Below, piece after piece: positions 221 to 64,000 of a stretch of DNA of 64,000 nt. How positions within the stretch are numbered: the stretch's first letter is position 1; each line of letters begins with the position of its first letter. The position numbers and the translations under genes are program-made. This stretch comes from Ulva prolifera (Eukaryota > Chlorophyta > Ulvophyceae > Ulvales > Ulvaceae): NCBI GenBank assembly GCA_023078555.1, contig CM041197.1, positions 4,981,810 to 5,045,809 on the forward strand, written 5' to 3'. Below the pieces are notes generated by a model, which was given only the letters and a program-made list of their open reading frames with translations, was not told where the DNA came from and made no database searches.

Positions 221-1624
221 CCTGCACGTACATCCGAGGGAGGCCCTCGTCCTTTGTAGTGACGCCGATGGCGCGGCTGTTGTTGCCGGCGCCCTGGAAT
301 ACACAGTCCGTGATCCACATCATCCCATCCACCTGCACATGTTATCATGCATACACGTATTGGCAGGTGCCTACAAGAAGGGGCTTCATCAGGCTGACGT
401 CTTTTAAGTGCTGGTACACTAGTGGCATGTGTTGTCTCGGCATATGTGGTCCCGTCACTTTGGAGTTGCCAATGTCCTCTTCAGGATACGGCAGAGTATA
501 TTCAGATTTGCTTTACTTTCCTAGCGGTCCAGTGCTCTAGTACTCCTGCTGCCAAATGGTACTGGAGAGGGCTCTACACACGCACGGCTACCTGCACCGC
601 CCATCACCAATGAATCAGGCTATCATGTTGGTCGAGACTACTGTACTTTCGCCGAACCTTCAATTAGGACTTCTAGAAGAGCAGGGATACCTGTAACTCA
701 TGGTGTCAAAAGCTAGCCCGCGAGCCGCAAGTTCCACCCACACTTGCAGCTGCGCCGCAGCTCTGGATGCAATTGACAGCGTGGCTGCGATTTAATGGCC
801 ATCTGGAGGCCCTGCGGCGTGGATGAGGGGCACACCTGCAGCACGAGGACGGAGCTCTCGGAGGTGCCAGGGCTGGCGATCGCGACATACAGCGAGTCGA
901 GCCAGAAGTGCCGGGTTCCCAGAGGCACGTCCAGGAAGTCCTCCGTGACGAGGATGGCACAGGCTCCCGGAGGCACCGGCTCTGTGAGATTGAACGATGC
1001 AGGGGGAGGGAACGTGCACCTGCCCTGCGCTGATCACGAGGTTGATAGCATGGCTGGCCTGGATCTAAATTTGTAGGGTGATGAACATTGTGTTTGCATC
1101 CGGGAGGGAATGCCTTGCATTGTGTGTCCAGGTGACAGATTGACCTGGTGACAATTTTCTGTTGTTGGTCCGCACTGCTACATTCAAGTGTATTGGCACC
1201 TGACGCAGTGTGACAGCCGCCTGGCCTGCCATATGGACTTATATGGTCAGTTCGAATTTCTATGTTGTGCATGAGCATGAGGCTGTTCGCGCACCGCTAT
1301 GGATGTGGTGGTGTCCAGGACCCTCCCTACTGCCGTGCTCAAAGCTTCTGCCTCAGCGTCCATGTCTGGTTCGGTGAAAACTGTCGTCATGTCTAAGTGG
1401 TTGGTCACGAGGATATGTTTGACGCCCGCACGTATAGACCTCTGAAACCCGGAAGGCGTGGAAGCCGTGATGAACGGGATCAATTGCGCATTTCCAGCAT
1501 CTCCAGCCGCGATGCAAGCCATTAGGATTTTGCTGAACGCATACAGCAGCTGTAGCGCAGTGTTTGGCTTCGCAAAGGTGAGGACGGGCGCGGCGATGCA
1601 TCGTCTTCGGCAGTGCAGCACCAT
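221..1624 (-). CDS. Beta-helix receptor family, 5' part (copy R0), runs off the left edge
   Basis: Three exons are visible on the minus strand: 1624-1295 (110 codons, phase 0), 1024-836 (63 codons, phase 0) and 332-221 (112 nt, leaving phase 1). Exon 1 starts at the ATG at 1624 and holds a hydrophobic leader followed by the family block STPSGFQRSIRAGVKHIL...NHLDM. Exon 2 has the block EPVPPGACAILV and the LYVAIASPGTSESSVLVLQ strand. Exon 3 has QGAGNNSRAIGVTTKDEG. Exons 2 and 3 have exactly the lengths of copy RA (189 and 112 nt) and very similar sequence, so R0 and RA are the closest pair. The repeated short strands and the NSRA turn suggest an extracellular parallel beta-helix; this is inference. 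Exon 4 onward should lie left of position 1, so whether R0 carries a kinase cannot be seen. It is divergently oriented to RA. Confidence 0.72.
430..520 (+). repeat. Dispersed repeat family 3, copy in R0 intergenic/intronic DNA
   Basis: This copy carries the family-3 core: ATGTGGTCCCG, then TTTGGAGTTGCCAATGTCC, a TTCAGGATACGGC block and a TTTACTTT end. About seven copies occur in the window in both orientations, with the same block order. Confidence 0.6.
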
Positions 1625-4600
1625 ACTCCGTCAGCGACCTATGCTATCAGCAGTACACATATTGGCATAAGTTATTACTACGTCGGTTCTGGACTGTCGC
1701 TCAGCGTCAGCGCGGCCCTGGCATGCAAAGGGGCTAGGCGCTCGATACACGAGTCCGAAGGCCGACAGCGGTATGCAATGCGACAGGTCTCCTGCTCGGA
1801 CTGTCCGCTTGAGTAATCAAACAAAGTTTTTGCACGCTCATCAACCTTGTATTCCGTTCGGGTGGCTTCTGCTCGAGAGCTCGGCTGAAGCGAGGTGAGA
1901 CAATGGAACCGAGGGCTGAAGTCTGCCACGGGGGCAGCATCGCCAGAGATCTTGTCCGATCCACGGTTATATAATAGCGAATCCAGGCTCGCAATCTCCA
2001 GGTTCCAGTGTGTCAACTGCTGTGCACAGAACGTTGCAACAGACCGGCGCCATCAGCGCATAGACACTTTTTTTTTGTCACGCGCCCACTTCTGACCACG
2101 CGCAGCGATGAGTAAAATGGTCATGACGCCAAGGCCTCAAATTTTACATGACGCTGGGTCAAGATAGTTGGAATTAAGCACCTGAATGGTTGAGCGATTA
2201 TCCTTGCCCTGAGGCCTCCTATTGCGAGTACTGCGCCTTTCTTTCACAAGCCTCCCTTTCTCAAACTCATCACGCTGTATTCCCGCTGCCCCCTTCCTGG
2301 ATCTAGATACCTGCCTTTTCTGGATCACGCTGTGCGATGATGAGACGAAGTGGATGGTATCTCGAGATACAACCAGGCCTCCTGCAGGGCATCACTTATC
2401 AATGATGCGAAATGTACAGTTGCAGTCACAACTTGAGACAGCAATTGCAAGGACCACAAGGTGGCTGCACATTGAAGGGTGGCTGCGGTGTGTTGTGCAG
2501 AGCGGCTCCTCTTGCGGGCTGCCGGGCGGGCCCCGCGTGTCTTCAAACACTGTCTTGCACATAAAAGGCGACACAGGTCATCATGATGTTGAGTGGAAAC
2601 CGCCAACCCGGAGGGTCAATGTCTGCCTGATCAGGAAGAGATGCAGATATACCTGCTCCATATGCGGTAGTGCTACATAATTGGCCAATACAACTCTGAC
2701 GTAACATGACAACGGTGTCCGGAGGAGCTCCTAGGAAGGGCCGTATGGACCACGTGCACCACACCTTGCCTCCACAGAACACCCCAGCCACAGCCGCCAT
2801 CCCATGCAGAACGCACTCAAATGCTCCGCAGCAGCGCCGCGGCTTACAACTACCCTCGTGCACACAATCGATCTCACCCGTGCCATAAACCAGTGTATAA
2901 CGCCCAGACCCTGACCCAGACCCACGCGCGCGAAGGCGCCAGCACTGGAGAGCAGGCTGGAGAGCAGGGCACCCCTCTTTGATTGCAGGTGCGCTCGCCT
3001 GAAGACCTCCGCACGGACGACGTCGTCCGCCTCTACGGCTCTGCTTGGCACGCGGTGTGGCGGCTGCCTGTGTTGGGCCTGTAGCCGCTGTGCCAGCTGA
3101 TCGGCTAGGGCCGGCACTGGCCTGGCCGAGGTGCCGCGAATGTAGGCTGTCGATGGGTGAGGGCTGCGCAGGCGTGAGCATGCTGCCTGATGCCACAACT
3201 CTCGAGAAGCTCCGCGCGCGGCCACCATTCCACTCGCAGTGGCGAATATTGTGCCTGTGCACGCGTGCAGTGCGGATGAGGGGGGACAGCCCCGCAGAAA
3301 CATCTAAGGAACAGGGCTATCAACTGAGCATAACACGCGAGCGCGTGAGCCAGCAGCCCCGGCAGAACATGTTCTTGCAAGCATCCTCCCAGCACCGGTA
3401 GAAATTTCCCAGCTCGCCCTCACCCACCCATGCACACACCAACATCCCAACACACGTGAGTACTCACCCCCACACACATGCCCCCCCCCCCCCCCAAATA
3501 ATGCACGCATTTGTCACCACTGCCGCGTCCGCGAGTTGTGCGGCCACACACGAGACCGGCCAGCTGGGCCAGCCCCCTGGCCCCCACCTTCACATACACC
3601 TGTGTACAGCAGACCCACTGCTGCGCAGCTCCCGACCATGTGAAGCCTACACCAGGCCGCGGCAGGGCTGCATCGGCCATAGTGCGACCATCACAGCCCA
3701 CTCTGCAACGATCTACACTGCGCCGTGGCTAGAGGTGTGCATCCCGATGGCCGAGGCCCACAGGCGATGGTGCGTCTGGCCACGAAGTGATTCGAATTCA
3801 TGGTGTCTATGTTACTGTCCAAGTACATATGTACTATACCTATAGGGTTGTACAACCCCCCAGCACATCCACCCTCTCCCCCGCAAAGCCGCTTCTGGGT
3901 AACACGGAACACCCCCCTGCCGCGCATCATGCTCTCTCTAGTGGCAAACACACAACACGAGGCGCCAGTCTTCCTGGAACAGGTGTCCTGAGTCTTCTCA
4001 TTGTCCGGGATACCGATTGCAGGTGTTACAAGGATAAATGCGGCGAGGCGGGCAGCACCGCGGAAGAAGCAAGCGGATCAAGTACAAACCCAGACATGTG
4101 CACCCACGCAACACACACAGAACCCTCCACGCGCGCGGGAAAAAGACGTCACCGAATCCGGATGTGACGTCGTCGAAACAGCATATACGCATCTGGCACC
4201 ACGGCGGCAAACATGCATCTGGCACAATGTGTGCACATGAATAAACGCAAAGATCACCCCGTTCGGCGGCAATTTGAGTGCTTCTGGGTGCACTTCGTAG
4301 CCCGAGGCAACGTCATGACATTGTGCACGTCCTGACGCCCACGGTCCAACTGAGAAATTCTGACACCACCACGAGTGCATCGACTTCTGTCCATGCATGC
4401 AGTATTGGAATACGCTGCTGCATACCGCAGGCAACCGCGCCGCCTTTCCTGTTGCCGCGGTACGCAATCGTCCAGCGTTTGCTAACCTGTTGGCACATGA
4501 ATGTTGATGCGAACGAGAGAGCTGGCCCCACCGCAAGGTGTTCGTTGTGCGGGACCGCTCACGATGCACCACTTCTTCGGCCTAGTCTCCCTTGCTTGAT

Positions 4601-4926: not shown

Positions 4927-7900
4927 ATGAGTTTATTGCGACAACCAGGCACAGGCCGCGGTCCAGCGTGCTGGTTGGGGTTGCTCTGCGTGATCGCCAT
5001 CAGCTGCGTTGGGGATTGCATCGGGCAAGCTCAAAATTCGAATGATTTTCTCGCAGCTTCTACTCCAGACAAGTTTCAGGCCGCTGTACGTGCTGGCATC
5101 AAGCATATCCTTATCACAGATCATCTGGACATGACAGAGTCTCCCAGAGAGCCAGACGCTGACCCTGAAGCTCAAGCGCTCAACAATGGTGTAGCCAGAG
5201 TGAGAGAAACAACACAGTCCATTGGAGTGCGTCACCAGTTTTCTTCCATGGACAAGGGTGTATTGTTGCGTGCGGAGACCAGTGTCAAGGACATCCCTGC
5301 GTAGAAACCGCGGTTGCAGGAATATGTCTTGCGTTTATTTGCAAGATGACACCAAACTTCATCAAATTTGATTTGTTGCTTTGGCTACTGCGTCGTTGTT
5401 CTGTTGCTTTGAAGCTGCGAGCTTGGCTGATGGACGAGTTGCAGATCACGGAGCGGTTGTTGACAGGCACCTGCAGTGCTTACCATCGCGATCCATTGGA
5501 TCATTTAAGGCTACCTCCATCAGTGCATATGCGGCCCACATCTATGGGAAGTTAGCTGTAGCGCCTTTGTCGCTTGTATACCTCGAGTTCCTCGGCATTC
5601 GACTCGTCAACCACCGTCGTGTTCAATTTTCATGCACAGGAAAGCTAATGCTGCATGTCTTGGCTGCATGTGAAGTAGTTCAGCGGCTACATCCGGCATG
5701 CGATTATCTGACGCAGACGACACCTAGCGCTCAACTTGGCACGATGTGTGGGAGTTTATACCTTCGCCAGTTCGAAACATCGTGAATTTTAGCTGAATTT
5801 TAGCTGAAAATGCCACATGTTTGAGCTGATATCAGCCCGTGTTCTGACACACTCTTGCTCCTATTGCCCGATTCGAACGACCGACGAGAAGAAGTAACCG
5901 CTCCTGCATAGCGAGGAGACTTTCGCCATAATTGATGAGCTCCTGACATATCTCCAAACTCATCTCAGCTCTCACACAGGGCCTCGAGCCATCTAGGCCC
6001 GTCTAGCTAAGCTTAGTTAAGGCTAAAGCACTCTAGTCTATCCCAGCGCATTGCCAACCGACTGTCCATCAACAAGAATCGTGGCAAATTCCATAAAGTA
6101 CGGCAGGGAGTCACTGCATGCCAGTATGTGTGCAGGGAAGATGCAGCACACCACCGCCTGCTTCGTTCAACCTCGTAGAGCCTGTGCCCCCCGGGGCCTG
6201 CGCAATCCTGGTCGAGGAGGACTTCTTGGATGTGCCAGTGGGGAACCTCGTGTTCTGGCTCGACTCTGTCTACGTCGCCATGGCAAGCCCTGGGACCAGC
6301 GAGAGCTCCGTCCTTGTGCTGCAAGTGTGCTCCTGCCCTTCTCGTGTCACCCGCATCCTCCTCAACGATTCACTATGGTCACTCTGCTTGCAAACTGACT
6401 GGCTTTAACAGCCAATGATGATCCCACACATCCGCACTAATTTTCCTTTCTTCTCTAATCTTTTTTCTGTCGCAGCAACGTTACATTGCTCTCTCGATGC
6501 GCCAAGAGCTGCCCTATGGCGCTGGCTGTACCCGGCCCTGGCGGGAGGGTGCTGGGTGTGCTGCAGTGCATCATGGAGCAGAAAAACAATCTCATGTTCA
6601 TCGGTCGGTCCGGCTGTGTGAAAATGATTTGCTACATCCGATCACAGGGTCACTGCTGGCCAGCACAACGGACGTGCGGCCTCGCAGCTAGGTTGGGGCC
6701 CGTCAGCCTGCCACCCACACACCCTCACATGGCGTGTGCATGCGACTTCGAAGAGTCTTCATTCCACGTGGCAAAAAGCATGAGTACAAAGCAACATCGT
6801 ATCGGTGCTCAAGAGGCTGGCTATGTGTGGAGGCCATGCATGTGCGCCACATTCGGTGTACCAGACGTGGCCACCGGCGCAACGGTACATGCGTTTGGGT
6901 CACTGCCTGTAAGTGTGCAGGTGGACGGGCTGCTGTGGATGACGAACTGTGTCCTCCAGGGCGCCGGCAACAACAGCCGTGCCGTCGACGTCACTACGAA
7001 GGACGAGGGCCTCCCTCAGATGTACGTGCAGGGTGCGGCCACGTGCATCCTATCGCCTGGCTCACCGATGCTGTATCAGTGCTAGCTGGATGTCATTGAC
7101 ACCGGCGTCTTATCAGTAAAGTAACGTTCACCTGAATGTACTTAACAGCATCCTCAACCGGACATTGACAACTCCGAATTCACGGGGCCACATGTGTCGA
7201 TGTATCAGTACCGGGGGGATTGTCAGTAGTACCGAATCGCGATCGGTACAGCGAGACAGCCTCTCATGCCATCAGTTTTTCAGGACAGCCTCACATGCCG
7301 TCAGTCTTTCCGGGCCGTCAGTGACGTCGGCAGAGCCTGCGGATGGGCACGGGCCTTCACGGCTGAGACGCTGCAAGCCACCGTTACGGCGGCAATGTCG
7401 CGGAGCTGCACGACCGCATATCTGCAGCCCTCGCGCCTCGCGTAATCTAGCTGCAGAGACAGTGATTGGGGGCCTGCGCGGCTGCATGTGCCTGTGGGCG
7501 ACAGTCGTGGTGCCATGGAGCACCAGTGGTGCTCCGTGGTATCGATACAGGCTGTGCCAGGTGACGGAGGTTTAGTGCCTGATGTGCCTGCTGTGCCTGC
7601 TGTGCCTGCTGTGCCTGCTGTGCCTGCTGCACTGTCCCGGTGCGCCCACGCTGCCGCCATGTCATGCCTGATGACATGTTCATCTTCCTCGTGCGCCTAA
7701 CCCGCTCAACGATCGGTTGCTTATGTCACGACGAGCACGGCACGAGCATGGGGAGTGGGCTCATAAGGCACAACCTTCTGGCCAACGGGCTGGACCGATG
7801 AGGGTGCGCCTTTATGTGCGGAGCCACACACAGTAATCAAGTCATACGAAGCAATGGCCAGCCAGCCGCAGTCGCGGCATGGCAAATGGCTCGGCAGGTG

Positions 7901-9729
7901 GCTGCTGCTTCAGTGCCCAGGTTGCCAGCGAACAGGCCAGCACATAGTGTGATATTGTGGTACGTTGAGGTGTATCATACAAAGTGGTGACAACGTGCAG
8001 GGTCGACGATCAGCAGCTTCACACGGCCGCTCGCGCCCGGCATCATCGTGTGGGAGGGCGCCTCCCTCACCCTCGATACCGTCACCTTCCGCAACCTCAG
8101 CCTCACGCCCTCCCTCAAGGGCGAGGTCGCGCGCTCCCCCGCCGTCACAGCCTTCGCGGGCGCCGGCCTGCTCATGCAGGTGCGCCACACATGGGCCTCA
8201 TGCATGATCCCACCTGGCCACCCGCTGCCCTGCTTCGTCAGTGTGCTGCACGAACCACTGCCGCTTGACACCGCCGCACGAATCGGGGATACATATGGTC
8301 CTGCCTGTGAGCGTCCCTGTGGCCATGGCGGTAGTAGCACGCATGTGCCCGGGTCTCAGGTGCAGCACCCCCCCCCCCCCCCCCCCCCCCGGCAGTTCAT
8401 GGAAGTGGGTCAGAAGCACCCAGCACCCAGCGCGCCGTGAACATATGATTATCCAATGCAGGACGTCTCGTTTGAGGACAACACAGTATACGGACAGCCG
8501 GCGGAGTTCCGGGCGGTGTCCATCGCAGCGGGTCCACCCGCGGCGATGGCGTTTGCCGCGCCGCCGTTCTTTGTGTGGCTGGAGCCGAGCGGGCCCAAGG
8601 TCATGACTCAGCAGCTGCGCAACAGCAGCGCATTCGAGCTCGGCTTTCTGGACGACAGCCCCTTGTTTTCCAGCATCCAGGCGGTGCGGTGCCCACACCC
8701 AAGGGGGCTCCCACGCTGCACTGCTGCAATCTGCCGTTACGCGCACCAGCAAATGAACTGCACGAGTGAGCATGTGCAAGATGCAAGCTGTGCCAGAGTG
8801 TGGCTGATAGGCGGCCATGAGTACGAGAGAGCCCTCGTCCGTCACATGCCTTCACATGGAGGCTCTTACGCATCAGTAAGAGAGAGTCTTCGTCCTTACT
8901 GATGTTTTCACAGCCAGTGGCGCAGCTCCTTTGGCCACGTCTGGGTGTCGCCCGGCTGCTGGTGCCTACCAACTGTTTTCAAACTCATGCCACCTTTGAA
9001 GTCTAGAAGCTCTCTCTCATCCACAGACCACTTCCTCACAACTTTGGGCACACATCTGCCCATAAATTGGGGCATAAACTGGGGCAAAACAGCTTAAATC
9101 TCAGCCAGCCGCCAGCAGCAGCTGCACCACAGGTATATGTTGTGAGTGCTGTGTAGGAGCGAAACGCACTCATAAACGACATGCTCGGCCCTCTGCCCGC
9201 AGCCCCCGCTCCCGCCCCCGCGCCCGCCCCGGCCCCGGCCCTGGCGCCGAGCCCCACCCGGGTTCCCGCCCCGGCGGCCGTCGCGCCGGCCGTGGCTCCC
9301 CCCGTCGGCACCACACAGTCGCCGATCCCCCAGCCCGCGCCGCCGCAGCGGCCGGTGCTCCCCCTCCCTCCTGTGCAGCCTGATGCCTCCCCAACCTCGG
9401 CCCGCGACCAGCCCGACCTGAGCTCAGTGTCAACCGAAAGGGGCCCGGATGGGGAATCTGCTGGGTCGGAGCAGGGGGCCGGGGACGACGGCGACGACGA
9501 CGACGGCGTGAGGGTGGGGCTGGTGGTGGCGTGTGCGGTTGCGGCCGCAGTGGCCGCGGCGCTGTGCGTCGCCGCCGCCGCGCTGGCCGTGCTGCGGCGG
9601 CGGCGGCAGCAGCTGGACGCGGACGAGCAGGCAGCGCTGCAGGAGCCGCAGGCGGCCGTCGGCCACTGGCCGGTGCGCCCCCTGAAGCGTCGCACCGAAT
9701 TGCATAGCTTTGTGACAAAAGCTATGTGA
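4927..9729 (+). CDS. Kinase-less beta-helix membrane protein (copy RA)
   Basis: Six exons are inferred: 4927-5226, 6136-6324, 6921-7032, 8001-8179, 8462-8683 and 9157-9729, giving 524 residues. The ATG at 4927 precedes a signal peptide with core WLGLLCVIAISCVG. Residues about 40-334 form the family ectodomain (FQAAVRAGIKHILITDHLDM in exon 1, EPVPPGACAILV in exon 2, QGAGNNSRAVDV in exon 3). Exon 6 opens with a Pro-Ala stalk, then an acidic stretch and one membrane helix at about 452-478, followed by RRRRQQ, so the N-terminus is probably outside the cell. Unlike RB and RC, no kinase exons follow. A family-typical donor (GTGCGC, phase 0) sits at 9673, at the place where RB and RC splice, so RA may be a truncated receptor kinase that now reads through to a stop 18 codons later. 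Introns are 909, 596, 968, 282 and 473 nt. Ligand and function are unknown. Confidence 0.72.
7130..7196 (-). repeat. Dispersed repeat family 3 in RA intron 3
   Basis: On the minus strand this reads ATGTGGCCCCGTGAATTCGG, then AGTTGTCAATGTCC and a diverged GATGCTG...AAGTACATTCAGG end. It has the same block order as the copies at 430, 44108 and 54905. Confidence 0.6.
7576..7629. repeat. 9-bp tandem repeat (TGCCTGCTG), six copies
   Basis: There are six consecutive units, the first with one change (TGCCTGATG). The array lies in RA intron 3 and is not part of an exon in my model. Confidence 0.9.
8368..8390. repeat. Poly-C tract (23 C) in RA intron 4
   Basis: An uninterrupted run of C lies between RA exons 4 and 5, about 70 bases before the exon 5 acceptor. 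Its exact length is prone to assembly error. Confidence 0.9.
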
Positions 9730-12406: not shown

Positions 12407-12469
12407 CTCTGCAGGCGTAGCCGCTGGGCGCCCACTCATGATGCAGACAGGTAAACACGTGCTGCAGAT

Positions 12470-12530
12470 CATTTACAAAAGAGTGAACGGCAGAAAACAA
12501 ACACTGAAACCGAATCTCATCCGAATTAGC
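12470..12530 (-). mobile_element. Family-1 retroelement 3' tail, short copy
   Basis: The segment reads TTTACAAAAGAGTGAACGGC, then AGAAAACAAACACTGAAACC and GAATCTCATCCGAATT. It is the reverse complement of the 3' tail of the element at 61663-62883. The flanks share only the 7-mer GCTGCAG, so the duplication is unproven here. Confidence 0.75.
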
Positions 12531-16172: not shown

Positions 16173-19100
16173 ATGCTTTTCTCACCGGGCTGGGGTAGGG
16201 CGGTTTTTTCTTCTTTGATTTTGTGGAGCACTGTGGTGTGCTACAGCGACCGTGCGAGCCTATGTAGCGCAGATGCCATTGATACGGGCGACTTAGTCGC
16301 AGTTGGAACACCCGCAGAATTTCAAGATGCACTCAGCCCGCTGAACAGGACGTCCCATGTGTTGGTAAGAGCCCATCTGAACATGGTCAGATCTCCACGA
16401 CCACCCGAATCGAGCGAAGACTACACTCTAGACAACGGTGTTGTGAGAATATCTCCATTTACCAAATCTATCGTGGTACGATCCTTTGATCTCTTGCAGC
16501 ACTTCCGTCGTTCAACCACTTCGACACCCAGCGTCGTGCACACGCAAGCATGCCCCGCAGATCCAATCGCGAAACGCTTCTGCGCAGGCTGTCCTTTTGA
16601 TCACCGTATAAAGTAGTCGGGGCCCAGGCTACTTCTGCATGCGCGATATGCGAAGTGTATCACTTTCGATGTGACGCGCAACGGTCGTTGAGTGAGGTCT
16701 CCACTCTACAACCTTGCTGAGTTGAGCACACCATCCCATTCCTGTCTGCAAGGGTGCTGATGTGTATGTTGAGGGTGTCGCGTGCGTGAGTGCCATGTAT
16801 CTGCCAAATGAAATGTCGATGGGCTAACCACGAGGGCGTAGCGCACTACATAGCCCCAGTATGGAGGCAACCTGGAGCTGCCCTGACTGTGTTGACCTTG
16901 ATCGAGCGCGTATTGGCGTATATGGTTGTGCGGTGTTGTCGAGTTCCGGCTCCAGGAGGCTGCCCATCATGCAACCAGATGATAGAGCAAAGGGGCAGAC
17001 ACGAGCGAAGCACAGAAACGCTGAGGCGCCGATGCTTGTGCGTGATGCTGGAGCTCTAAATGCTAAAGGCATCTTGTCTGCGATACATCCATCTCCAGTA
17101 TCGGTGCACTGGGAATGCCCATGTACCTGAGCCAAACCAACAGCACCTGACGGCACACCAGATTCTCAGCTCATCCGTCTACCTGGAAAATATCTCTGTG
17201 ATCTTGCCGCTGTATCTCTGGGCATCTTTTGAGGTAGCACATTTGGCCTGCAAGCTGAGTGCTCAGTAGTAGAACAGTGCTGTTCTGCAAGCATTGTTTC
17301 TATCGGATAACGTTTCTGCCAACGCTTGATGCAGTTTTGACCATCCCAGGAGACCCAGTTCCCGGGTTGCAGCTGTGCACTCGCATCGGTAGGCCCTCTG
17401 TAAGTGACTGCATCTCTCAGACGTGTACTGCTCTCGTTGCCATCATGCACGTGAACAGTGCTGAACTGTTGGGCACAGTCTTACAGCGTAGTCGATCCAA
17501 AAATCATCCAGGAATCGCACTCCTGATCCAACTCATGACTGATCAAATGTCCAGAGTAGTGGCTGTGCACTCTCATTCGTGTGCGCCATGTGCACGGACA
17601 ATGTGTAAATCTTGTTCCCACAGTCCAGCCGTAGCATCCCACTTGCGATATTTTAGCAGTACAGCGATCAGAGTACCTGAGTCATGTCCAAACATTCGCA
17701 CACATCCTCCGGACTTCCAAATGTTATCTAGCAGAGACATGATCCGCCCGATGCCATCTGTGCCAGTGCTCACTCAATGGCTGTATGATCAGGCCCAGCT
17801 GGGCTCATACGCCATTGCAGGCTGAGATGGGGATCATGAATGTACACAGGACAGGTCATTACAAGGCTCAGCGAGCGCCGCACATCTGCACTCACGGCCT
17901 GACACCTGGTCTGCCTCTGAGGTGGAGCGCCGAAGTGATCCATTCTGCACGCCACATCGCTCCCACGAAGCAGCATGACACCTCGCCCATCGAATTGCAG
18001 CATGGACCCCGTGGAAACCCTTTCTCGCATCACTCTGCAGCGACACACTGTTCCGTCAACCCGCAGGGCGCCCGTTCAACACCCGAATCTGCATCCCACC
18101 ATTGCGCCTCTTCGCCACGAGAGCTCTTGTTGGAGCTGTTGCGTCCACCACTAGGAGGGCAATGCGTTGCTGCCCTTCCAGCCAGGCGCAGTTAGTCCGT
18201 GCATATCTCTACGCGAACAAACCTCAGTGATGTGACACCTCGGGGTGCAGGGGAACTGCAGCGACGCCGGCCCGGCGCCCGCGGGCTTTGGCCTCACCGA
18301 GCCGCTGCCGGCCGGCGCGTGCGCGATCCTCGTCAACGAGGACTTCATGGACACCGACCTGAAGGCCTCGCTGTGGCTGCACAACCTCTACGTCGTCGTC
18401 GCCGCAACCGTCGGGGGCGATGACTCCGTCCTCTTCCTGCATGTGTGCCCCCTCCCCCCCCCACCTTCCCCCTTCTGCAACACACAGCAGCAGCCTCGCC
18501 ACAGTGATTCCACGTAGGCTTCAGCTCCGCCTCTGTGATTCTGTGAAGGGCGTCAACTGTGCCCACCGGCTGCGCCCACGCACTGCAGCATCCTGCCTTT
18601 GTGGTGTCACGCAGGCTGCAGGCTGAGGGAGCTGTTTTGTGGGGTCGCCGGTCCCTGTGGCCGGGCGAAGGCTGGGCATCGCGGCGCGGTTGGGACGTGT
18701 GTGGTGGGGGCTTGACTGGGGCGATGGGCTGCAACCCGCGCTTCCGCGGACAGCGGCACTCGACGGAAACGGGCAGTCTGAGGATTGCTGCTCGTGAGTC
18801 GTTACAGCCATGTTGTTTGGCTGCGTTGACATCGTGTGTCTTGTCCATTGTTTGACTTGACGCCGGTGATTGAATCATCGATGGAGAATCTCGTCGTAAA
18901 TGGCCGCCACCACTCGGGAGTGCCGTGGCGCTGGCACCCGTGCTGATGTAGCGGCTGGTTTGCAGACCAACGGAGACGTGTACATAACCAACATGACGTT
19001 CCAGGGCGCCGGCACCAACAGCCGCGCCATCGAGCTGTCCCCGGAGAACGGCGCCTCCCCAGCGCTGTGGCTGCAGGGTGCGCCTCCGGCCTCCACCGCC

Positions 19101-22100
19101 CTCCTCTACTGCCATGCCGCACGACGGCTGTGTGTGATGTCAGTGCGGAGTGCGTATCGTGTAGTGAACCCGGATCTACTGAGCCGTGTTCTTGCAAGAC
19201 TTTGAGACCTCCGGATGCACCGGCCCGCACCTGCCGAATGTGTGACATGTGCACCTGAGTTCAGGGCTACGCGGCAGCTTGCTGTGGCTGCTGGGGCAGG
19301 GGTCCGGCCATCAGCGTTTTGAGATGCCGCCAGCTGCCACGGCACCACGCTCGCTGCTGTGCGTGCTGTGGTGCTGACGGCACGGCACGGCAATCCCGCT
19401 GGGCGTCTGGTACCTTAGCAACAGCTGCCAGCTGATCTTTCGGGGTCGGCAAGGTACGGCCGTAGCGCGGTAGCTGAGGGCCCGCGTCGCAGGCAGGGGC
19501 GCTGTGGCAGGGGCGCTCCGGTGTTGCATCTGTGCGGATCCTGCGCTGCAGAGTGGGGTGCGAGAGGGTGGCGTGGGGGTGCGAGAGGGTGGCGTGCGTG
19601 CGTGCAGATGTGATCATCACCGGTTTCTCCCGGCCGTCCGCGCCGGGGGTGCTGCTGGGCAATGACACGACCGTCAGCCTCGACAACGTCGTGCTCAAGG
19701 ACCTCAACCTGACGGCCGGCGGGGACGTCGCCGCCGGCTCCGCGCTGATGGCGATGGGCGGCGCCGGCGCTCTCCTCGAAGTGCCCCCCCCCCCCCCCCC
19801 CCCCCCCCCCGCTCCTGCTGCTGTCAGGCTCCTCCGTCCCATCTACCGCCATAGTCTCTGCTGTTGACACAGCCACCGCATCTGCGGCTGCTTCTCCGCC
19901 CTCCTGTGGCCTGTCTTGCGTCCTGCTGAACCACTTCTGAGAGATGCCCTCACGCACTCGTACCCATGCTGCATACCCATACTCAGCTACGCAGACAGCT
20001 CCGTGGATGTGTCGTTGTTGGTGCGCCGTGTCTTGCGTGCACTTGCCTTTCGTGTCCAGAGGGCCACCAAGCGGTGCCTGTGGCGACAACGATGAAGTCG
20101 GCGATGTACCTCCTCCGCAGCTTCAACCCTGTGAGCCATTGCGCTGTGTGTCTGTGCAGGCCACGACGATCACTAACAACTTCATTCTCGGCGAGCCTGC
20201 CGGTGTCAAGGCCGTGGCGCTGCTTGGGGGCGATGACGGCGCCGTCGTGTTTGCGCTGCCGGCGATGACGGTGTGGGACTGGAGCGACGAGGAGGAGGAG
20301 CCTACACAGGACGTGAAGGACATCGGCGAGCGCGGCGGCAGCACCTCCGGTGGCTTCCTCCAGACGTTTCTGCTCCGCGACATCCAAGAGGTGCGATGCA
20401 TGACCTGGATCCTGTACTTTTTGTTTTCGATGTTGAAGGCATGAAATATCTGCTGCCTCCACACATGTGCTGCATGCATGGAGGCAGCGGTTGGCCCACA
20501 TGGTGTGGTATGGTATACGGTATACGTACGCAAGTCCGAGAATTATGGAGCCGAACGCACGTGCACCGGCACCGCCTGCGCATTGGCACCTGCTTCAGCA
20601 ATCGCTTGCTTGGTCGAAATCTGCATGGGCTTAAGCCCAGAATTCTGTCGCTTGTGAGTGCCATGGCATTGTGAGTGCCATGGCCAGTTGGTGGCCTTGG
20701 CGTACAGGGGGTACCTCTGGTGCGTTTGCACACATGTGGCCACTGTGGCTTCGATTATGGGCCTGCGCATGTGCACCAGTGTCACAGAGAGTTTAGGACA
20801 GGTGCCCCTGCGCTGGTGGCTCGCTAGCGCTGTTCAAGTACATGTACGTGGGCCTGCAAGTCGCCGAGTCACGCACGAGTCGTGAGGAAGCACGCAGCGC
20901 TAGCTTGTGGCAACACATCCGTTGCTCGAGCTCCTGGATCACCTTACCGTGCATTGCGGCACTCGGGATTTAATTTGCTGGACACATCGCAGTGCTTGCT
21001 TGCGAAACACCTGCCAATCGGCGCAGGGCTCACGCTTTAGATCTAGCCTAGGTGGCGCCGCGCAGCTGCGCCTCGTCGGCACTTCACAGTGAACTTCGCT
21101 GCTGCGCCGTCGAAGTTCGCTCCGGCTTGGCATCCATAATCGATCAGGGCTCGCTGCTTGCAACGGGAACTGCAGGCACGCTCACGGCGACCACGCGCCA
21201 GCATCGGTAGCCTCGACGGTCGAGACATACATTTTGCATATTGTGATGCGATACCAGATCGTTAGGTCGACAGCACCTTGCAGCTCACATCACGTGGTGC
21301 TATCTCTGGAGATACAGCTAGCGCTACACGTCGGTTGATCCTCGTGACTCGTGGGCATTGCTCGCGCCATGCATATGGCCAGCAGCTTGCTGGACATCAA
21401 CCACCGAGCCCCAAGCGTGCGCGTCGAGCTCCCCCGGCTCGCCATTGCGAACGCAGCGCCTTGCCTCACAAAATTACAAAACACATGGCCACCAGCTGCG
21501 CATTGTCCTTGTAATACACAGGCTGGACCACATGCTGCCCCGTCAGCCCTCCACAGCTGCGCATAGTCTCATGCTCATATGCAGGCACAATCTACATCAA
21601 CGGGATTTGTACAGAAGTGCGAACGGGACAAACACAGCAAAAGAGTCTCTTCCGCATCAACAGCCGCACACACACATGGCCACACTACAGCAGCGCACAA
21701 TCTACATCAACTAGGCTCGTGGAAACTCTGTGTGTCGCGCCCTCGGCCTTGCACTACAGCTACACCCCATGGGTCACGTGTGACGAAGTCGGCGGTCCTG
21801 CCGGACCTGGGTGTTCGTGCGTGCGCTGCTGTAGTGTGGCTGCGTGTGTGACTGCTAATTTGGAAGAGATTCGTTTGCTGCGTGTGTCGATGCCTGTGCA
21901 GTCTTCTGTTCAAATCCCAGCTCCTTACGTGCCAAGATGGCACAGCTTGATTGTGTGTTCATCCAGGCGCCCGGTGCTGTGCAGGAGCAAGCGAGCCTCG
22001 TTGCTGCTGTCTTTGGCTTTGGCACCGATGTCCTGGCCGAGGCCCCAGAAATCACCCCTGTAGCCACGCCCGGATCTGCCACAGCTGAACCAGAAGACAC

Positions 22101-25100
22101 TGCCAGCCCCACGGCCGTCAGCCCCACTTCAGCCACCACCTCCCCCGCCGCACAGCCGCGGGGCTTCGACCAACCACCCAACACCTCGCAGCCCGGCGGC
22201 GCGGTTGCACCGTCCCCTGAGTCACAGCCCGGGGGGGTGCTGGGCAACACTGCCGACACGGCGGATGCCGTGGGAGCGGACGGTGAGTCTGTCCGTGACT
22301 CGAGCGCACAGGTCGGGTGGATTGTGGGGAGTGCGGTCGGCGCGGCGCTGCTGGTCGCGCTGTGTGGCGTGCTCATGCTGATTGTGCTGCTGCGGCGCCA
22401 GCGGCGGCGTCAAAAAGAGGCGCATTCGAAGGATAGCTGGCAGGTGTGGCTCCCACCCGCATGGGGAAAATCCGAGAGATTCGGAGAGGCATGTAGCACG
22501 ACAAACGCCATAGCGTGTGTGCAGATGAATCCGCCGCAGGCCTTGTGGCCGGGCAGCTTGCCCTCTGCAAGCAGCAGGGACGCCTGCGCCGACGCAGCTC
22601 AGCCCGCCGCTGCGACCGCGTCCACCGCGGTGTCCCTCGGGGCCGCGAACCGCAGCCGAACCGTCTCTCGCACCGGCAGCGTCTCCTCCAACGGCACCCT
22701 GTCCGGCCCCTCCGCCCCGGCCTACGTCCACCCCGCCACCAGCGCCACCTCTGCAAGCATGCATGCGGCGGGGGGCCTGTCCGGCATGATCGTGAACCCG
22801 ACCGTCGGCTCGATCTACCCGACGTCGAGCGCGCAGAGCGGGCGATCGGCGGAGGGCCTGCATACGCTTCCGCAGCAGGCGTCGCCGATGCCGGACAAGC
22901 TGTCCCACGCGACGGTGCCGCCGCTCGACGCCCATTCCCCAGCCAAGCCGCCGCTCAGCGGCAACAGTGTGCTGCGCGCGCTGCCGAGCGGCACGAGCAG
23001 CGCGGCGGCCGGCGGCGGCGTCGGCAGTGTCGCGATGGTGTCGCTCGCCGCGCAGTCGCTGAACCGTAGCGGCGCGGGGGCCGGTCGGGGGGAGTCGGTG
23101 TCGAGCCTGGGGATTGCCCTGCCGACGTCGACAAAGGACTTCAGCTCGTGCGGAGTCGTGCACGGTAGCAACACCCTCGGGACGACGTTTGACTCGATCC
23201 CGGTGGAGGAGCCGGCGCTGCCGCTGCCGACGACGGCGGACCGGGAGGGCGGGGCGCTGATGCCCCCGGACCTCCTGGAGCATGCATTGGACAACCTGTC
23301 GGCGGCGCAGGTGCCGTTCATGGGGGAGTTCCGACTGCTGGGGCCGCTGGAGCGGCGCGGCGGCGGCCAGGGTCTCGTGCAGTTCGCGACGCAGATGCGC
23401 GGCGGGGACCCCGTCGCGATCAAGTTCTTCATGAACAACCGCGCGTTTGAGTGCGAGCGGGAGCTCTACTCGCAGGAGCACCTGCGGGGCATGATGCCGG
23501 CGGTATCCCTCATGCACAGCAACGCCGATGTGCGCTTCTGCCTGCCTGCTGTGTGCTGTGTGCTGTGCGATGTGTGCTGTGGTGCGGCTGCTTGAGACCC
23601 TGTGCGATGTGCTACGTGATGTGCTGTCCTGTGTGCTGTGCTGTGGGCAAGCACGTGTGGACAGGCGCATGCGTGCAGAGGGGGCTTATGATCATGCACG
23701 TGCAGTTTGGGGGGGGGGGGGGGGGGGGGGCACGACCTTGGTGCCTAGGATGAGTTGACTTGTTGTTGCATCTGACTTATGTCCTTATCCGTGAATGTGT
23801 ATCAGCTGCTATCCTGACATAGTAAGGACAGTTTGGTTTGGGGATGCTGGGAGTGTTGGGAGTCCTCGGAGTCGGAGTCAGAGTCAGAGTCCTCGGAGTC
23901 GGAGTCGGCTTCGGCTTTCCGTGTGAATTGGATCTGTTTGCAGCATGAGTCTTTCTTGTTGCGTCCTGTGGCCCCCGGGTTTCTCAGTCACTCTCCTAAA
24001 TAAGTAAATTCCTGTTTCCACTAACACCTGTTTTGCAAACACCTGTCAGCACATGGTGCTAGCTGGCAGGGGTCGGGCAGGGGTCGGGCTGCAGCTGCGC
24101 TTTCACCCCTGGCCACAGCTGCCTTTCCTGTGTTTGAGCTGCCTTGCTGCCGGACCTGTGCCAGGGAAGCGCGCATGTTGGCCAGCATGGGAGCATGGCA
24201 TGTGACACGGACTTGGTCTGGCCAGATGTGCAGCATTATCACCATTATCAGTGATCATTTATCACCATTCTCACCATTACCACCATTGTTGGTGTCAAAG
24301 ATTTGTATCAGTTTTTTTCTGTGAGTCAGGCCAGCCAAGCTTCCATCCACTGGCATTGGATGTGACGAGCATGTGACGAGCATGTGACGAGCATGTGTTT
24401 ACCATTCTGCTCAGCTTAGCTGGGCTATCACAATTTTGTTGTTTATCACGTCACGTGTCCATAAGCTGTTCCCCTGAGTCATTGCTGCCATCATCCATCA
24501 TAACCTTGTAAAAGCTGCATTGTTGTGCATAGTAAGAAGTCAATCCAGGCATCAGCTTGTGTAGGACAAACAAACATGTGTTATAAGGAAGAACAAGAAC
24601 TTTTGTGCATTTGCAATGCCTGAGTGCCATTGACATTCCTCAGCAGCAGAGCCCACCCACCTGAAGATGTGTGGGTGGCCCTGGAAGACTCACAGTCTGG
24701 AACACTGGTCCTCTGTTTCTACACGCATGTATGTAGACTGTTTGTAGACGGTACCGGCACAGGCTTAGAATCAAAGAACATGTGCAAGCGTAACACTGTT
24801 GCAGCCAGCATTAAGTCAGCCTCAGGGTCACCTCGCACGAGGCCGGCCACCCACCCACCCACCGTGCAGCAGAGAGCACACAGCAGTGTCACAGATTTCA
24901 AACACACACTGCATGACGCAGCCAAGCTCTATGTTTGCGTTTCGACATGCGACATGCTGGTGCGTGCTCCGGTCCATGCCGACTGAATCACTGTGTGTTC
25001 CATTTGTCTTGTTTGCGGTGTCACTGCAAGCTCCACAGCCATGGGTACCACACAATGCCACCACGGCAAACAATAGCAGTTCACCATCGTATGACCTGTG

Positions 25101-41379: not shown

Positions 41380-52582
<11,203 letters not shown>

Positions 52583-55058: not shown

Positions 55059-55061
55059 CCC

Positions 55062-55130: not shown

Positions 55131-57946
55131 GCCCCGGCGTCGGGTCCTGTGGTCGCGGGGCATCATGGCAATGCTTTCCTCGGTGCCGGAATTCTGCAGG
55201 TGATGTTGGCTCCGCCTTGCGAATGCTATGTTTGAACGTGGGCATATTTATGACCCTACTCTGCTCTGCACTTTGGGTGCCAGGATGTGGGCACATGCAT
55301 GCTCGCGCAAACCCTGGGCGCGCATATGTTATTGTTGCTGCCTTCCCAGCTTCCTGGAAAATAAACCTCAGCAAATCTGCAGCTGTTGTCCCCAAAAGAT
55401 ATCTACATGCATCGTGGCCAGGTGGCCACCTAGGACTCAGATGCACATTCTGCATCCTATGTGAGGTACGCGCTCAAGTGGCCCCCGATACGCCCCGCTT
55501 GCAGCAGACCATGCCGTTCCAGGGTTTGCCGCAGGCGAAACTTGCCTTCGCTCTCCGTCGCCAAGCCGTCACTCCCTGTGGGACTGGTCGCGTATGCATG
55601 CATGGGCGGTGAATGCCTGACGGGCGTCGAGCGGGCTAGTGCGAACTTTGCAGGCAAGCAAGCGAAGACAGCGATCACGTTCCAGCAGCGGCAGCTTGTG
55701 CATGCACGCCGCGCAACGTCGCCGTATCGGTAGACCCCTGCACAATCCACACGCACGTCGCGGTATCGGTACAGCTACCCATACTTTGAGGATCGTGGCA
55801 AACGCTGACAGTTGCCAAATCAGGTCGAAAGAGAGGCACAGTCCTGGCATAAGATGATTCGAATGTTCTCGTTGCGATGGCCGCGAAAAAGCGGTCTCTA
55901 GGCGGGACACGCGCGCAAGGTGTGTTGCAATCATGATGGGGTCTCCCGTGCGCACTGCAGGCAAGTGACAGGCGCAGGAGAATACACTAGCAGCGTAATT
56001 TTGGAATTCGTGCTGTGTGACGTGAGCCTGGGCGCCTTGCTGTGGTCCAGAGGCAGTCCTCTGCATGTGTTGTTGGGCTCCGCACACCCACTGAACGCAT
56101 TGCGGGGTACCCGATATACTGGCGTGGTCATGCGCTACAACTGGAAAAAACATCTGCGATGGTCATGATGGAATTCTGCCATTGTCATGATGTTGTTGAT
56201 GCTGTATGCGCCGTATGGCCAAAGCATCATCGGCTAAGAGAGCACCCCTAGCCACGTGCACCATGCCCGACAGCACAGGACAGAGCTCGGCATATAACCC
56301 GGCGACAACCGAAAGGATAATCAAAGCGGAACCGGAACCCATATGCTTCGACTTTACACCTTCGTTTGACTGCCCGCGCATAACGGTAAGTTCGACTTGC
56401 GTCGCCGAAGCCTTGTGAGCCGTTTCGGGCGCGTCCGTGCATCGTTCGTTGAGGGTTGCGACGCGACAATCGCGAAGCCTGTGCCATCAAGACAGCATTC
56501 CTAGTCACCTCTAGCTCCATTGCAATGCAGGTGTGTACGGTTTGAGGCCCTTGCATTGCGTTGACGCGCAGCCAAGCTTGCACTAGAGCACACCGCGATT
56601 GGGAATGCGCGCCAGCGAAGTGCATGGGCAACGGCTGTATATGCGTGTCCCTGTAGCACGCGCGCTGTTGTGTGGCTGTCAAGCTGCATTCCAGTCTCTG
56701 AATGTTGCAGTCTACCTTCGAAGCGCGCTCGCCGGTTGCTGGTTGTATCAACGCTGTGCCACCGACGCGTCGGTTACCTCGAGGGACGCAGTGGGCTTGG
56801 TGTTGCGTGAACTAGCCTGCGGGCCATCACCAGCCACCAACACCTGTGGGTTAATGCCACTCCGCGCATGAAATGCAGCGGTTAGATGGTATTGGCTCTT
56901 CGTGTTTGTGTGCGCCAGTTACCATACCAGTCGGTCCAGCCGCTGCTGATGTCGACCGAGTGCTGCACTTCACCTGCGTTAAGTTCGTCGTGTACAGCAT
57001 CGAGCACTTACCGTAACCTTGCGGAAATCGTCGTTGACATCAATTTGCCTTTCCGAGTTCCCATGAGACGTAGACCGATTGCGTTCGTGGGTCGCTCTGT
57101 CGCGGCCTACACCTCCATTCTGTTGTCGTGGGCCTCGGGCGCGCCAAAGCTGTCCGAACTCCCATTACGGCGAGAAAGCGGAAGCTGTGGTCCACATGCA
57201 ATCTCTGGTGTCGATCGTATGTTATTCAAAGCAAGTACTGTGCGAGGCTCGCGCAGGCTTGCGTAGGCAGAGACCAAGCTCAGCAGCACTGATGCTCGGC
57301 ACGATATCAGTCGTAGAAACAGCAGGGTGGCAGAGCTTCAGCAAGTTCCCCGTCCATGCTCATGATTGTGCTCAGAACCTTTGAGACACGCTTGACAGAA
57401 CCCACAGTCTCCAACATGCTCGACACAGTTCAAGATGCACGAACATACCCTTGAAATATGCCACAATATTGACTTCAAATGCATCTGTGGTAGCGCCTCG
57501 ATGCGCAGGAGCACAGATGGCTGCCACATGCCCCGTCCACACCATTTCTGCACAGCACATGTGTACAGGCCGAGTTCCTCACAGGTAGAGCTTTCCACAA
57601 ACCGCTCTGGAACACTTCTGCATCCAACATTGGATGATATAGATTTTAATACCCAATGACTCTGCACAATGCCTCATCGTCGCGATTGTGCCATGCGCAA
57701 CTGGACGTCCCACCATGGCGATGTGCTCTGATGACCTGCAAGCTCTCCCAGAGCGCATTAGGTGTCATGCAAACGCCAGCCTGGCAAACACATGAGCCTC
57801 CGTATCCTTGCAGGGCGTCCGACCGCTGCTGTAAAGCCTTCTTTCGCACAGCCAGTGCATCAGCAAAGAGCCCACACCAGGAGCACACTAGTTCCTCCAG
57901 CAACGCCAGTGCCAACACCTGCCCGGCACCTGCCAGCAGCGTCACC

Positions 57947-60115
57947 ATGGCCACCTTCAATTACAACCTCCAGCGGTTCATCTACAGCGTGGCTGTGGCC
58001 GCTCTGATGCTGCTGGCGACTGCAGCAGCCGATGCGGGCGCCGCGGCGGACTTTGTGGTCGTCGGTGGTGGCACTGCCGGTTGCGTTGTCGCCGCACGCA
58101 TCTGCCGCGATCTCCCCGACGCGTCCGTCCTGCTGCTCGAGCGCGGCAAGCCCCGCGGCCGCGAGGACAACCTGCTCGTGCGGTCGCCCGTGCGGTACCA
58201 GGAGACCTGGACCATCCCGGACTTGACGGAGACGTGGCAGTCGGAGCCGAACCCCGGCCTACGCGGCCGCACGCTGCCGCTGCAGACCGGCAACACGCTC
58301 GGCGGCAGCAGCGCGGTCAACACCGCGCAGTGGGTGAAGCCGCCACTGGCCACTTTTGACGGTGACGCCTGGGGCTTCTCTGGTGCGGCCCCCCGGCAGT
58401 GTGCATGTTTGACATCCCTGCATGTTTGAACCACACGAGGAGACGGTGTGAGGCCACATGCACTGCCTGCTGTGCGTTGTGCAGAGCTGCTGATTAGGCG
58501 TGCTGCTGGTGTGATGGTCAGGTGCTCGCGCGTGGGGCACTCCACAAAAGCGCCGCTGATCATGAGCAGCTCCCGCTGCGGCAGCATGCGGACGGCAACT
58601 GCGAACTGCGCGCTTACACCAACATACACCCTACGCAGGACTTGACTCACAGAAAGCAGGCCGGCTGTACCGCCGCGCAGAGCGGCGGCTACAAGTGGCG
58701 CAGCCGCCGCCGGAGCGGCAACACACATACGCGCCTGAGTACCTCGCCGCCGCCGAAGCGGTCGGGATTCCGACCGACGACGACCCCCTCTCGCGCAGCG
58801 GGCCCCCAGAGGATGGCTTATGGGTCAACGCCGTCGCCGTCGGCAGCAAGGGCCGCCGGCAGGACTCGTGCTCCGCGTACCTGACGCCACTGCTGCGCGA
58901 GGGCCGCGAGTGCGCGGGGCGTGTGGAGATCGTACAGTCGGCAACAGTGGCTAAGGTGGTGATCGAGGGGGGCCGCGCGGTGGGGGTGCGGTACCTGGAC
59001 GGGGAGGGTGTGGAGCAGGAGTCTTCGGCGGGGGTCGAGGTGGTTCTCTCGGCGGGGCCGTTCGGGTCGCCGAAGGTGCTGCAGCTGAGTGGCGTCGGGC
59101 CGCCGTCGGTGCTTGACGGCCTTGGCATCGATGTCGTGGTGGACCTTCCGGTCGGCCAAAACACGATCGTGCGCCTCCACCTCTGCCTGATAGCCACCCA
59201 TATGGGAATTTTACTCCACTGCACGGCGCCGGCTGTGCAAACACCAGCAGATTCGACGCCAGGGTTGCGCTTTGCTGCTTTTTGGATCGCCCCGTCACGT
59301 CGATGAATATGCATGGTCTCGCACCCACAGCCTGGAAACTGACAGACCCGCACCGTGATGCTCCACGTCACAAACACAATGCAGGGTTTTCCCAAAAAGC
59401 ACCCATAAGCGTTGTCAGTCCGCGTGGTCAACGGACACTCTCCCTGCAGGCACGCGCGGCGGCGCTGATGATCGACACGTACACCGCACCCCTTGCCCCG
59501 GAGGCCAACAGCGACATCTACAACTCGTCTGCGGCGCGTGAGCAGTTCGCGCGCGGGGACGGCGGCGTCCTCGCCGTCAGCCCCGCCGGCGGCAACGGCG
59601 TCATCGCGTCTGCAAACACGTACACCAGCTTCACCAACACGCCCACCCCCGGCACCAACGACAAGTTCATCGTGTCCCTCTGCGGCGTGAACCCCAGCTC
59701 CCGCGGCAGCCTCCGCGCCGCGAGTACCGACCCCTTTGCGCCCCCGGCGATCACTGCAAACTACTACGGCTCCGCCGCGGAGCTTGACAACGCCGTGCAA
59801 TGCATGCGGCGGCTGCGGGAGATCCACGACGAGCTCACGCCGGGACTCGGGCTGACGCCGCTCGTGCCGGGGAATGGGGACGTTAACACGGACTCCGTGC
59901 GCGCGAGTATTGTAGGGTTCAACCACTTTGCGGCAGGGTGCGCGCTGGGGGAGGTGGTGGATGCGGATTTCAAGGTGATTGGGGTGGCGGGGCTGCGGGT
60001 GGTGGACGCGTCGGTGATGCCGGACATTCCGCCGTTCGCGGGCCCGATGGCAACGGTGTACATGATTGCTGAGCTGGCATCTGAGATCATTGTTGCTGAG
60101 CATGGGAGCAGGTAG
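57947..60115 (+). CDS. GMC-family FAD-dependent oxidoreductase, secreted or membrane-targeted
   Basis: Three exons are inferred: 57947-58382, 58660-59168 and 59450-60115, giving 536 residues, a normal length for the family. The ATG at 57947 has a strong context (GTCACCATGG) and starts a signal peptide (FIYSVAVAALMLLATAAA). The Rossmann FAD motif FVVVGGGTAGCVVA follows at about 36-49, with LLLERG as the ribose-binding strand, and the GMC signature GNTLGGSSAVN at about 112. Exon 2 has VVLSAGPFGSPKVLQLSGVG, the second GMC signature. Exon 3 has HFAAGCALGEVVDADFKVIG, then LRVVDASVMPDIP. The spacing resembles plant HOTHEAD/mandelonitrile-lyase-like proteins. By eye the second catalytic segment reads PPFAGPMATVYM, where relatives have an Asn or His (as in TNPQAT), so the usual catalytic pair may be incomplete. 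Substrate is unknown; alcohols or hydroxy acids are typical for the family. Confidence 0.85.
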
Positions 60116-61170: not shown

Positions 61171-61252
61171 ATGCCATGTACAGTGGTGCTTGCCATACGG
61201 CACGCGCTCACGGTACTGGTCACACTGTCGTCGAGTTGCCTCGCTCAGGCAT

Positions 61253-62899: not shown

Positions 62900-64000
62900 C
62901 ATTGCAAATGGCCGGCGCCCCACACGAGGCGCAGTCTCATCGCGAGTTTTGTTCCGGCCAAGACGTACACGAGTGCGGAGCAGTCGATGCGGCAACACTG
63001 GTGACTCACCGGTGACTGAACGTGTGTACGACTTTCCATATGAAGTTGTGCATATCCATGCCTGCAGGGAATGTGCTCACAGCCTGCAGCCACCTTCGCT
63101 CCTGCGGCACTTCCAGGGCGTGGAGTTTGCGCCGCCGCCGTCAACGCCGGCTTCCTACACGTGGCCATGGACAGTGCACCAGGCCCGAGCCAGCTCTGGC
63201 TAGATCTATATCGACAACCTCCACCTCACAGCCACCCCCGCAGCTGCATGCATGGCACCGATGCGCCAGGGGTGTCCATGAGGCAGACCAGCCATGAGCC
63301 ATGAGCCAACGCTGCTTGTCCATGAAGCAGACCAGCTGTTCGCGACCAACGTCACGCTGAACGGCAGGGAACGTACGCTCACGTGCACACCGTGTACATG
63401 TACCTAGGGCTCTACCACTCGAGGATCCGACGCAGCCTCCCGAGGTGCACGCCGTCGTCGTGTACAGTGCGCTGCCCGAAGAGGGCTCTCTTCGATTGCT
63501 CTCTTTGATTGCTCTCTTCGATTGGGGCGACCTTGCCTGGCTTGCAGGCGACGTCAGCTGTGCTCTCGTTTCCAGGCTAGCCGCTGGGCGACGACCGGCA
63601 CCATCAAGATGCCTGCACCAGTCTTTGGAAAGCAAAGTAGGGTCAACCTGAGAGGTTTGTGTGGGTCACATCCCCCCCACGGCCCCCAGCATCTGCGCAC
63701 GCATGCATGCATGCAGACTGCACTCGTCCACCCCTGTCTCGATAACTCAACGGTAGCAGTCTGGACACTATGGCTGACAATTTGCACGCATGCATGCAGA
63801 TTGCACAGTCAGCGAGTGCCTCAACAGCCACGCGGCCGGCGTCCTCCTCACACCGCGCACCCGCGCCGCTGTCACCACCACCGCCTTCCTCGCCAACGCA
63901 CTGCTCCTGGCGCGAAGCGGCGACCGGCCGTCGCGATGTGCGGCTCCGCCGTCGCCGCCCGCGCCAACGCCACCATGCTCTTCTAAACGTGCACGTTCCG

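Follow-up and report, generated by a model that had tools for sequence, protein, structure and literature searches.

How does a green seaweed read what lies outside its cells, and could a cluster of related genes in the sea lettuce Ulva prolifera be part of the answer? In the available parts of two papers, bacterial products are needed for Ulva morphogenesis and their perception is an open question (PMC8891106, PMC10974524); according to the available part of PMC8307928, the pathways by which the matrix of macroalgae acts on growth and development still await characterisation. The stretch of DNA analysed here, hereafter the window, is 64 kb long (C2:4981810-5045809) and belongs to a genome of 88.9 Mb in 44 contigs. 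It harbors five copies of one ectodomain family, as claimed in a preliminary description of this DNA and established here by profile matches: RA' on the minus strand, and RA, RB, RC and RD on the plus strand. RB and RC are likely single-pass receptor Ser/Thr kinases of the plasma membrane, driven by a ligand, with their kinase-less neighbours as partners. The ectodomain (E <= 0.1) and kinase (E <= 0.001) profiles gave no match in five Markov-simulated 64-kb sequences.

The models of RB and RC combine open frames with splice consensus and were cross-checked against each other. Donors are mostly of the GTG type and acceptors mostly TGCAG. RB (16173-28389, plus strand) has 9 exons encoding 1288 residues and RC (41380-52582, plus strand) has 10 exons encoding 1158 residues. 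Their exon phases agree and the proteins align from the signal peptide through the end of the kinase, so that both stand as complete copies; RB exon 6 is the counterpart of RC exons 6 and 7. Each protein comprises an ectodomain of ~300 residues, one membrane helix, a low-complexity linker of ~250-300 residues and a kinase. Exon 1 (RB 16173-16475, profile match E 5e-26; RC 41380-41643, E 1e-29) encodes the start, a putative signal peptide and the ectodomain N-cap, the signal peptides being by-eye calls of which a hydropathy scan flags that of RC (residues 5-23) and not that of RB. The ectodomain continues in exon 2, with two invariant cysteines (RB 18251-18442, E 1e-25; RC 45021-45215), exon 3, with an NSRA motif (RB 18966-19077; RC 45319-45430), exon 4 (RB 19608-19780; RC 46647-46834) and exon 5 (RB 20160-20390; RC 47205-47426). 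RB exon 6 (21985-23529) covers the stalk, the membrane helix (residues 455-473 by hydropathy), the cytosolic linker and the kinase N-lobe with its VAIK motif; in RC, the stalk and membrane helix (residues 361-379) belong to exon 6 (48466-48681), and the linker and N-lobe to exon 7 (49545-50519). Then come the kinase hinge (RB exon 7, 26169-26285, GESLDEW; RC exon 8, 50872-50988), the segment with HRDLKPGN followed by DFG in RB (exon 8, 26850-26991) or DYG in RC (exon 9, 51268-51409), and the C-lobe with the C-tail to the stop (RB exon 9, 27338-28389, SPPE and DIWAIG; RC exon 10, 51537-52582). Hydropathy accompanies the model for exon 6 of both genes, and profile matches do so for all the other exons. 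To note, RC intron 5 contains ~100 head-to-tail GTGTGC hexamers (window 47538-48140, 603 bp).

These exons were found by reading and splice consensus, and many ectodomain loci have no kinase match. Both facts would suit two separate, adjacent genes, one for the ectodomain and one for the kinase, joined by the splicing models. Proteins from Ulva mutabilis argue otherwise. When RC residues 1-958 were searched against 5.8 billion proteins, 115 matched, the top three all from U. mutabilis (943, 417 and 224 bits) and the remaining ones at <= 75 bits and <= 31% query coverage. P0001 (UM062_0009.1), the RC counterpart, covers 97% of the query with 51% identity, while P0002 (UM062_0013.1), the RB counterpart, ends inside the kinase; the two names place them on scaffold UM062 as numbers 0009 and 0013, and the records give the gene name only. 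Because the independently annotated P0001 joins ectodomain and kinase and spans the whole RC architecture, the comparison of sequences indicates that the chimera is no artefact of the splicing models. P0003, P0116, P0118 and P0119 display the same ectodomain-to-kinase order as RC, and a single membrane segment is predicted by hydropathy in each of these four as well as in P0001 and P0002. With the compatible exon phases of RB and RC, and an ectodomain on the same strand at 68 of 119 kinase loci (see below), a pair of separate genes is very improbable. The tandem clustering and receptor-kinase architecture put forward in the preliminary description hold on the same three grounds: the RB/RC models, the U. 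mutabilis protein and the paired loci.

The RB and RC kinases match PF00069 with E 1e-23 and 2e-24 (84-87 bits), and PF07714 with 35-39 bits. All six aligned kinases (one P0118 insert being left out) keep the catalytic K, E, HRD, DxG, PE and R unchanged, and the HRDLKPGN, D[FY]G and SPPE motifs reported earlier are present in both RB and RC. An HRDLKP motif is indicative of Ser/Thr specificity. Against the PDB, the best 60 of 1524 matches of the kinase profile are TTK, PknB, PknA, OSR1, MK2 and similar kinases at <= 70 bits, with no plant receptor-like kinase (RLK), Pelle or IRAK among these 60; nor is a plant RLK found among the best 60 PDB matches of the RC kinase. The lack of plant RLKs among these matches and the higher score of PF00069 over PF07714 lean towards a kinase outside RLK/Pelle, a placement by scores and not by a tree. 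As a control for the family kinase profile, eight kinases of the genome from outside the family reach <= 59 bits, as against 145-288 bits for four family stretches, each scored by its longest kinase exon. A search with the P0001 kinase region gave 68 proteins at E <= 1e-12: itself, five U. mutabilis proteins at 39-70% identity, and others at 23-39%, the named ones being bacterial except for a single protein of an oomycete. Green algae other than U. mutabilis do not appear by name in this search, which was length-restricted, scored the best word-sharing candidates and returned mostly unnamed rows. Outside Ulva, the kinase relatives found are distant and mostly bacterial. A protein search by full-length alignment returned P0002 and bacterial-type kinases without recovering P0001, and no conclusion was drawn from it.

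The family extends far beyond the window. The RC kinase query gave 139 exon matches in the genome, merged into 119 loci (116 with a wider merging distance), which is a lower bound as 131 of 534 candidates were scored; 37 of these loci lie within C5:7.19-8.73 Mb. Two of the 119 are on contig C23 and repeat C7. There, the kinase and ectodomain matches of C7:621-636 kb recur with identical or almost identical scores, possibly reflecting an uncollapsed haplotype. An ectodomain match is located upstream within 10 kb on the same strand at 68 of the 119 loci, a count based on four ectodomain queries, and on the opposite strand at 2. When the ectodomain positions were shifted by 37, -53 and 120 kb, 20, 14 and 9 loci were still paired, since the loci are clustered. 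The preliminary description, which had proposed a genome-wide count of the family, is borne out on its main points but put the scale too low, with at least 119 kinase loci, 68 of them with an ectodomain upstream. The window itself is part of an array on C2 (4.81 to 5.08 Mb) of 21 merged ectodomain loci, six with a kinase match <= 10 kb downstream; this total includes RC twice, and possibly a single gene as two loci 4.6 kb apart. Five stretches, shortened, were read directly: four with a kinase, L047 having been chosen on a prior ectodomain hint, and L046. In L044, L045, L047 and RE, a gene to the right of the window with matches at window-numbered positions 67640-72903, ectodomain matches lie upstream of the kinase and membrane segments were read by eye; L046, an array copy, has no kinase in the 8.9 kb examined. 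Among 30 kinase loci with ~1.5 kb of flank, an ectodomain match was seen in one (L013), these flanks being too short to judge.

What are the copies devoid of a kinase? RA (4927-9729, plus strand; profile matches) is modelled with six exons (4927-5226, 6136-6324, 6921-7032, 8001-8179, 8462-8683 and 9157-9729), the first five being the same as in RB/RC. Its 524 residues form an ectodomain, one membrane helix and a tail of ~45 residues, and a kinase-profile scan between RA and RB gave no match. RA' (221-1624, minus strand) has exons at 1624-1295, 1024-836 and 332-221 and continues past the left edge, where its hydrophobic C-terminus resembles, by eye, a glycosylphosphatidylinositol-anchor signal; the kinase profile found no match in the 20 kb left of the window. 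Positions -8499 to -5459 of this left flank hold another kinase-less copy, and a fragment lies at -15438. Kinase-less calls rest on the genome search with the RC kinase within 10 kb, the kinase profile itself having been run on the ectodomain loci from C2:4961810 to the left part of the window and on L046. RD (63056-64000, plus strand, up to the right edge) consists of four weak collinear ectodomain matches (E 0.006 to 0.3). These matches being weak and its reading frame disrupted by comparison with RE, RD is probably a pseudogene, a decayed duplicate of RE.

The decay of RD raises the question of whether most copies are functionless duplicates on the same path. This is highly unlikely: RB, RC and RA are open across their exons, orthologous kinases are 81-91% identical, and RA and RA' diverge with a nonsynonymous rate (dN) of 0.22 and a synonymous rate (dS) of 0.56, hence dN/dS ~0.4, over 159 codons of exons 2-4 (exons 1, 5 and 6 left out; near 1 for exon 4 alone). 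In detail, RC and its U. mutabilis orthologue share 81.1% identity in the kinase (302 residues), 46.7% in the ectodomain and 44.5% in the linker; for RB, the values are 91.4% (the 174 kinase residues present in P0002), 60.0% and 55.2%. These similar identities put ectodomain and linker at about the same rate of evolution, with the kinase slower. A constrained kinase behind a fast ectodomain is the pattern expected of receptors, whatever their ligand. The same fast-diverging ectodomains, and the tandem arrays with kinase-less copies, also fit loci for recognition among the alga's own cells (gametes, adhesion, allorecognition). A family devoted to such recognition, instead of to the environment or microbes, is rather unlikely beside the preferred reading, a ligand-driven receptor family with kinase-less partners.

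In an alignment of eight ectodomains, invariance is limited to the columns V, A, I, G, C, C and L, which take in an IxGxC...C pair. Pfam finds no family at E <= 1 in the RB and RC ectodomains, and at E <= 5 the eight members match five families, none of them leucine-rich repeat (LRR), lectin, LysM, WAK or malectin, in agreement with the earlier claim that the ectodomain falls outside the LRR, lectin and LysM classes. That description also had NSRA recurring within one ectodomain, which is not the case: it occurs once each in RA', RA, RB and RC. Its proposal of a beta-helix fares better. With hhalign, a profile of 16 ectodomain copies reaches a score >= 23 against four of eight beta-helix segments of the same genome (range 16.8 to 36.7; the eight come from seven genes and the four from three), while none of 70 control segments does (maximum 21.5) and residue-shuffled versions of the eight stay <= 18.0; these controls are random protein pieces, mostly of bacterial-type kinases, not screened piece by piece for the absence of beta-helices. 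AlphaFold models, which the description had called for, are based on an alignment of six sequences and predict an all-beta ectodomain: a strand, an N-cap helix, then short strands. Profile scores and strand pattern together favour a right-handed beta-helix, which we regard as the more probable fold, though not a proven one.

Many polysaccharide lyases and pectinesterases have a beta-helix fold. The beta-helix signals would hence also suit a lyase or esterase tethered to a kinase, processing wall polymers instead of sensing them, and at the loose Pfam limit Pectinesterase appears in one of the eight members (E 0.3). No charged residue is invariant across the eight aligned ectodomains, which speaks against an enzyme and makes this alternative improbable. 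The other loose matches are pentapeptide repeats (two of eight members, best E 0.019) and two apparently unconnected families. Independently of the receptor-like family, dozens of long single-frame open reading frames with significant PF13229 matches, many of ~800-1080 residues, occur at C2:134-977 kb and elsewhere; they represent a separate, large beta-helix expansion in this genome.

By analogy with other receptor kinases, the following scheme can be proposed. The ectodomain would be secreted and face the wall or the seawater, probably folded as a right-handed beta-helix of short length on which a helix and the conserved cysteine pair form the cap. Its connection to the catalytically complete kinase would be a single membrane helix followed by a long, flexible linker. 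A ligand, which may be a wall polysaccharide, a microbial product or a partner protein, would bring ectodomains together; the kinases would then trans-phosphorylate and pass the signal inward. Kinase-less neighbours such as RA would probably serve as co-receptors or decoys, like the receptor-like proteins (RLPs) of land plants. Of all this, the sequences themselves show the architecture, the intact catalytic residues, how large and how clustered in tandem the family is, and the faster change of the ectodomain; the fold, the localisation, activation by a ligand and the part played by kinase-less copies are inferred.

Several observations weigh against this scheme. At the gene-model level, RC has weak-consensus splice sites placed by frame (exon 2 donor, exon 3 acceptor and exon 6 donor). 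As for the fold, PF13229 (Beta_helix) matches two of eight members only at the loose limit (best E 0.23, not significant), and a PDB profile search with the ectodomain gave best E values of 0.6 and 1.1, none significant. The predicted local distance difference test (pLDDT) is a modest ~45-80 until residue ~220-240 and low beyond, and fold searches with whole models return lists filled by kinases, from which the ectodomain is not separable. Regarding architecture, of the five copies initially described, RB and RC alone, two of five, have a kinase in the window, RA being a complete membrane protein without one. In the C2 array, 14 consecutive plus-strand ectodomain loci and RA' have no kinase match, and 51 of the 119 kinase loci have no ectodomain match within 10 kb upstream. 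Finally, in L048 (C2:4452500-4459400) the family kinase and membrane segment follow an unmatched extracellular region, possibly a second ectodomain class, and in P0117 of U. mutabilis the kinase is preceded by six hydrophobic segments. The front parts joined to this kinase family are hence of more than one kind.

Elsewhere in the window, a tandem pair of genes on the minus strand (~30190-33070 and 35100-38620) encodes proteins with several hydrophobic segments, by eye, which share 66% identity over 198 residues and have no Pfam match at E <= 0.01 in the pieces scanned. At 57650-58426 on the plus strand, a PF00732 match (E 3e-7) marks the N-terminal portion of a GMC oxidoreductase. A dispersed short repeat, found in both orientations near 12471, 14122, 14630, 14769, 15354, 60521 and 61673, translates to KRVNGRKQTLKPNLIRI-like text and resembles a small interspersed element. 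Scans of the window for Rfam families (gathering scores) and transfer RNAs found none.

How does this family compare with known systems? Land plants and their streptophyte relatives are the lineages usually associated with large receptor-kinase repertoires. In land plants, such receptors combine a signal peptide, an ectodomain, one membrane helix and a Ser/Thr kinase, and they occur in tandem clusters with kinase-less relatives. The Ulva family has in common with land-plant RLK/Pelle kinases and RLPs this architecture, with a putative signal peptide, the Ser/Thr kinase, the tandem clusters, the kinase-less relatives and a fast ectodomain; it differs in having no plant RLK among its best 60 PDB matches and no Pfam family at E <= 1 in the RB/RC ectodomains. 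The receptor-kinase architecture is of a known kind; the novelty comes from the ectodomain, from the lineage of the kinase and from the number of family members in a green seaweed. With ectodomain and kinase both looking unrelated to land-plant receptors, this seaweed of the sea-lettuce group probably built its own toolkit for sensing the outside.

The family seems to have escaped the RLK census: in its available part, a 2024 review puts U. mutabilis at one RLK and the remaining chlorophytes of its table at ~1-4 (PMC10868138), and the available part of an Ulva paper names receptor-like kinases only as a topic for further work (PMC8891106). In the titles and abstract starts among the literature matches listed, the family is not described; the U. 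mutabilis genome paper (De Clerck 2018), which reportedly discusses kinases, may mention kinase expansions. A broader proposal, advanced tentatively, is that of an independent sea-lettuce RLK/RLP-like system with a kinase outside RLK/Pelle and a beta-helix ectodomain, comprising at least 68 receptor kinases and a kinase-less array, overlooked by domain-based censuses and reading the wall or bacteria, including the morphogens needed for form. If true, the RLK/RLP strategy would have an independent origin in a multicellular green lineage. The family offers concrete candidates for the perception by Ulva of bacterial morphogenesis products and for the coupling of matrix state to growth in macroalgae.

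Among the other systems considered, the closest are the U. mutabilis proteins P0001 and P0002, which have the same architecture, with ectodomains only 47-60% identical to those of RC and RB. Right-handed beta-helix proteins (PF13229, pectin-lyase-like) resemble the family by a weak profile similarity and by the strand pattern, while the conserved cysteine pair and the absence of an invariant charged residue set the family apart. Brown algae evolved LRR receptor kinases independently, as stated in the available part of PMC8307928; these too are receptor kinases of seaweeds, but with an LRR ectodomain and in another lineage.

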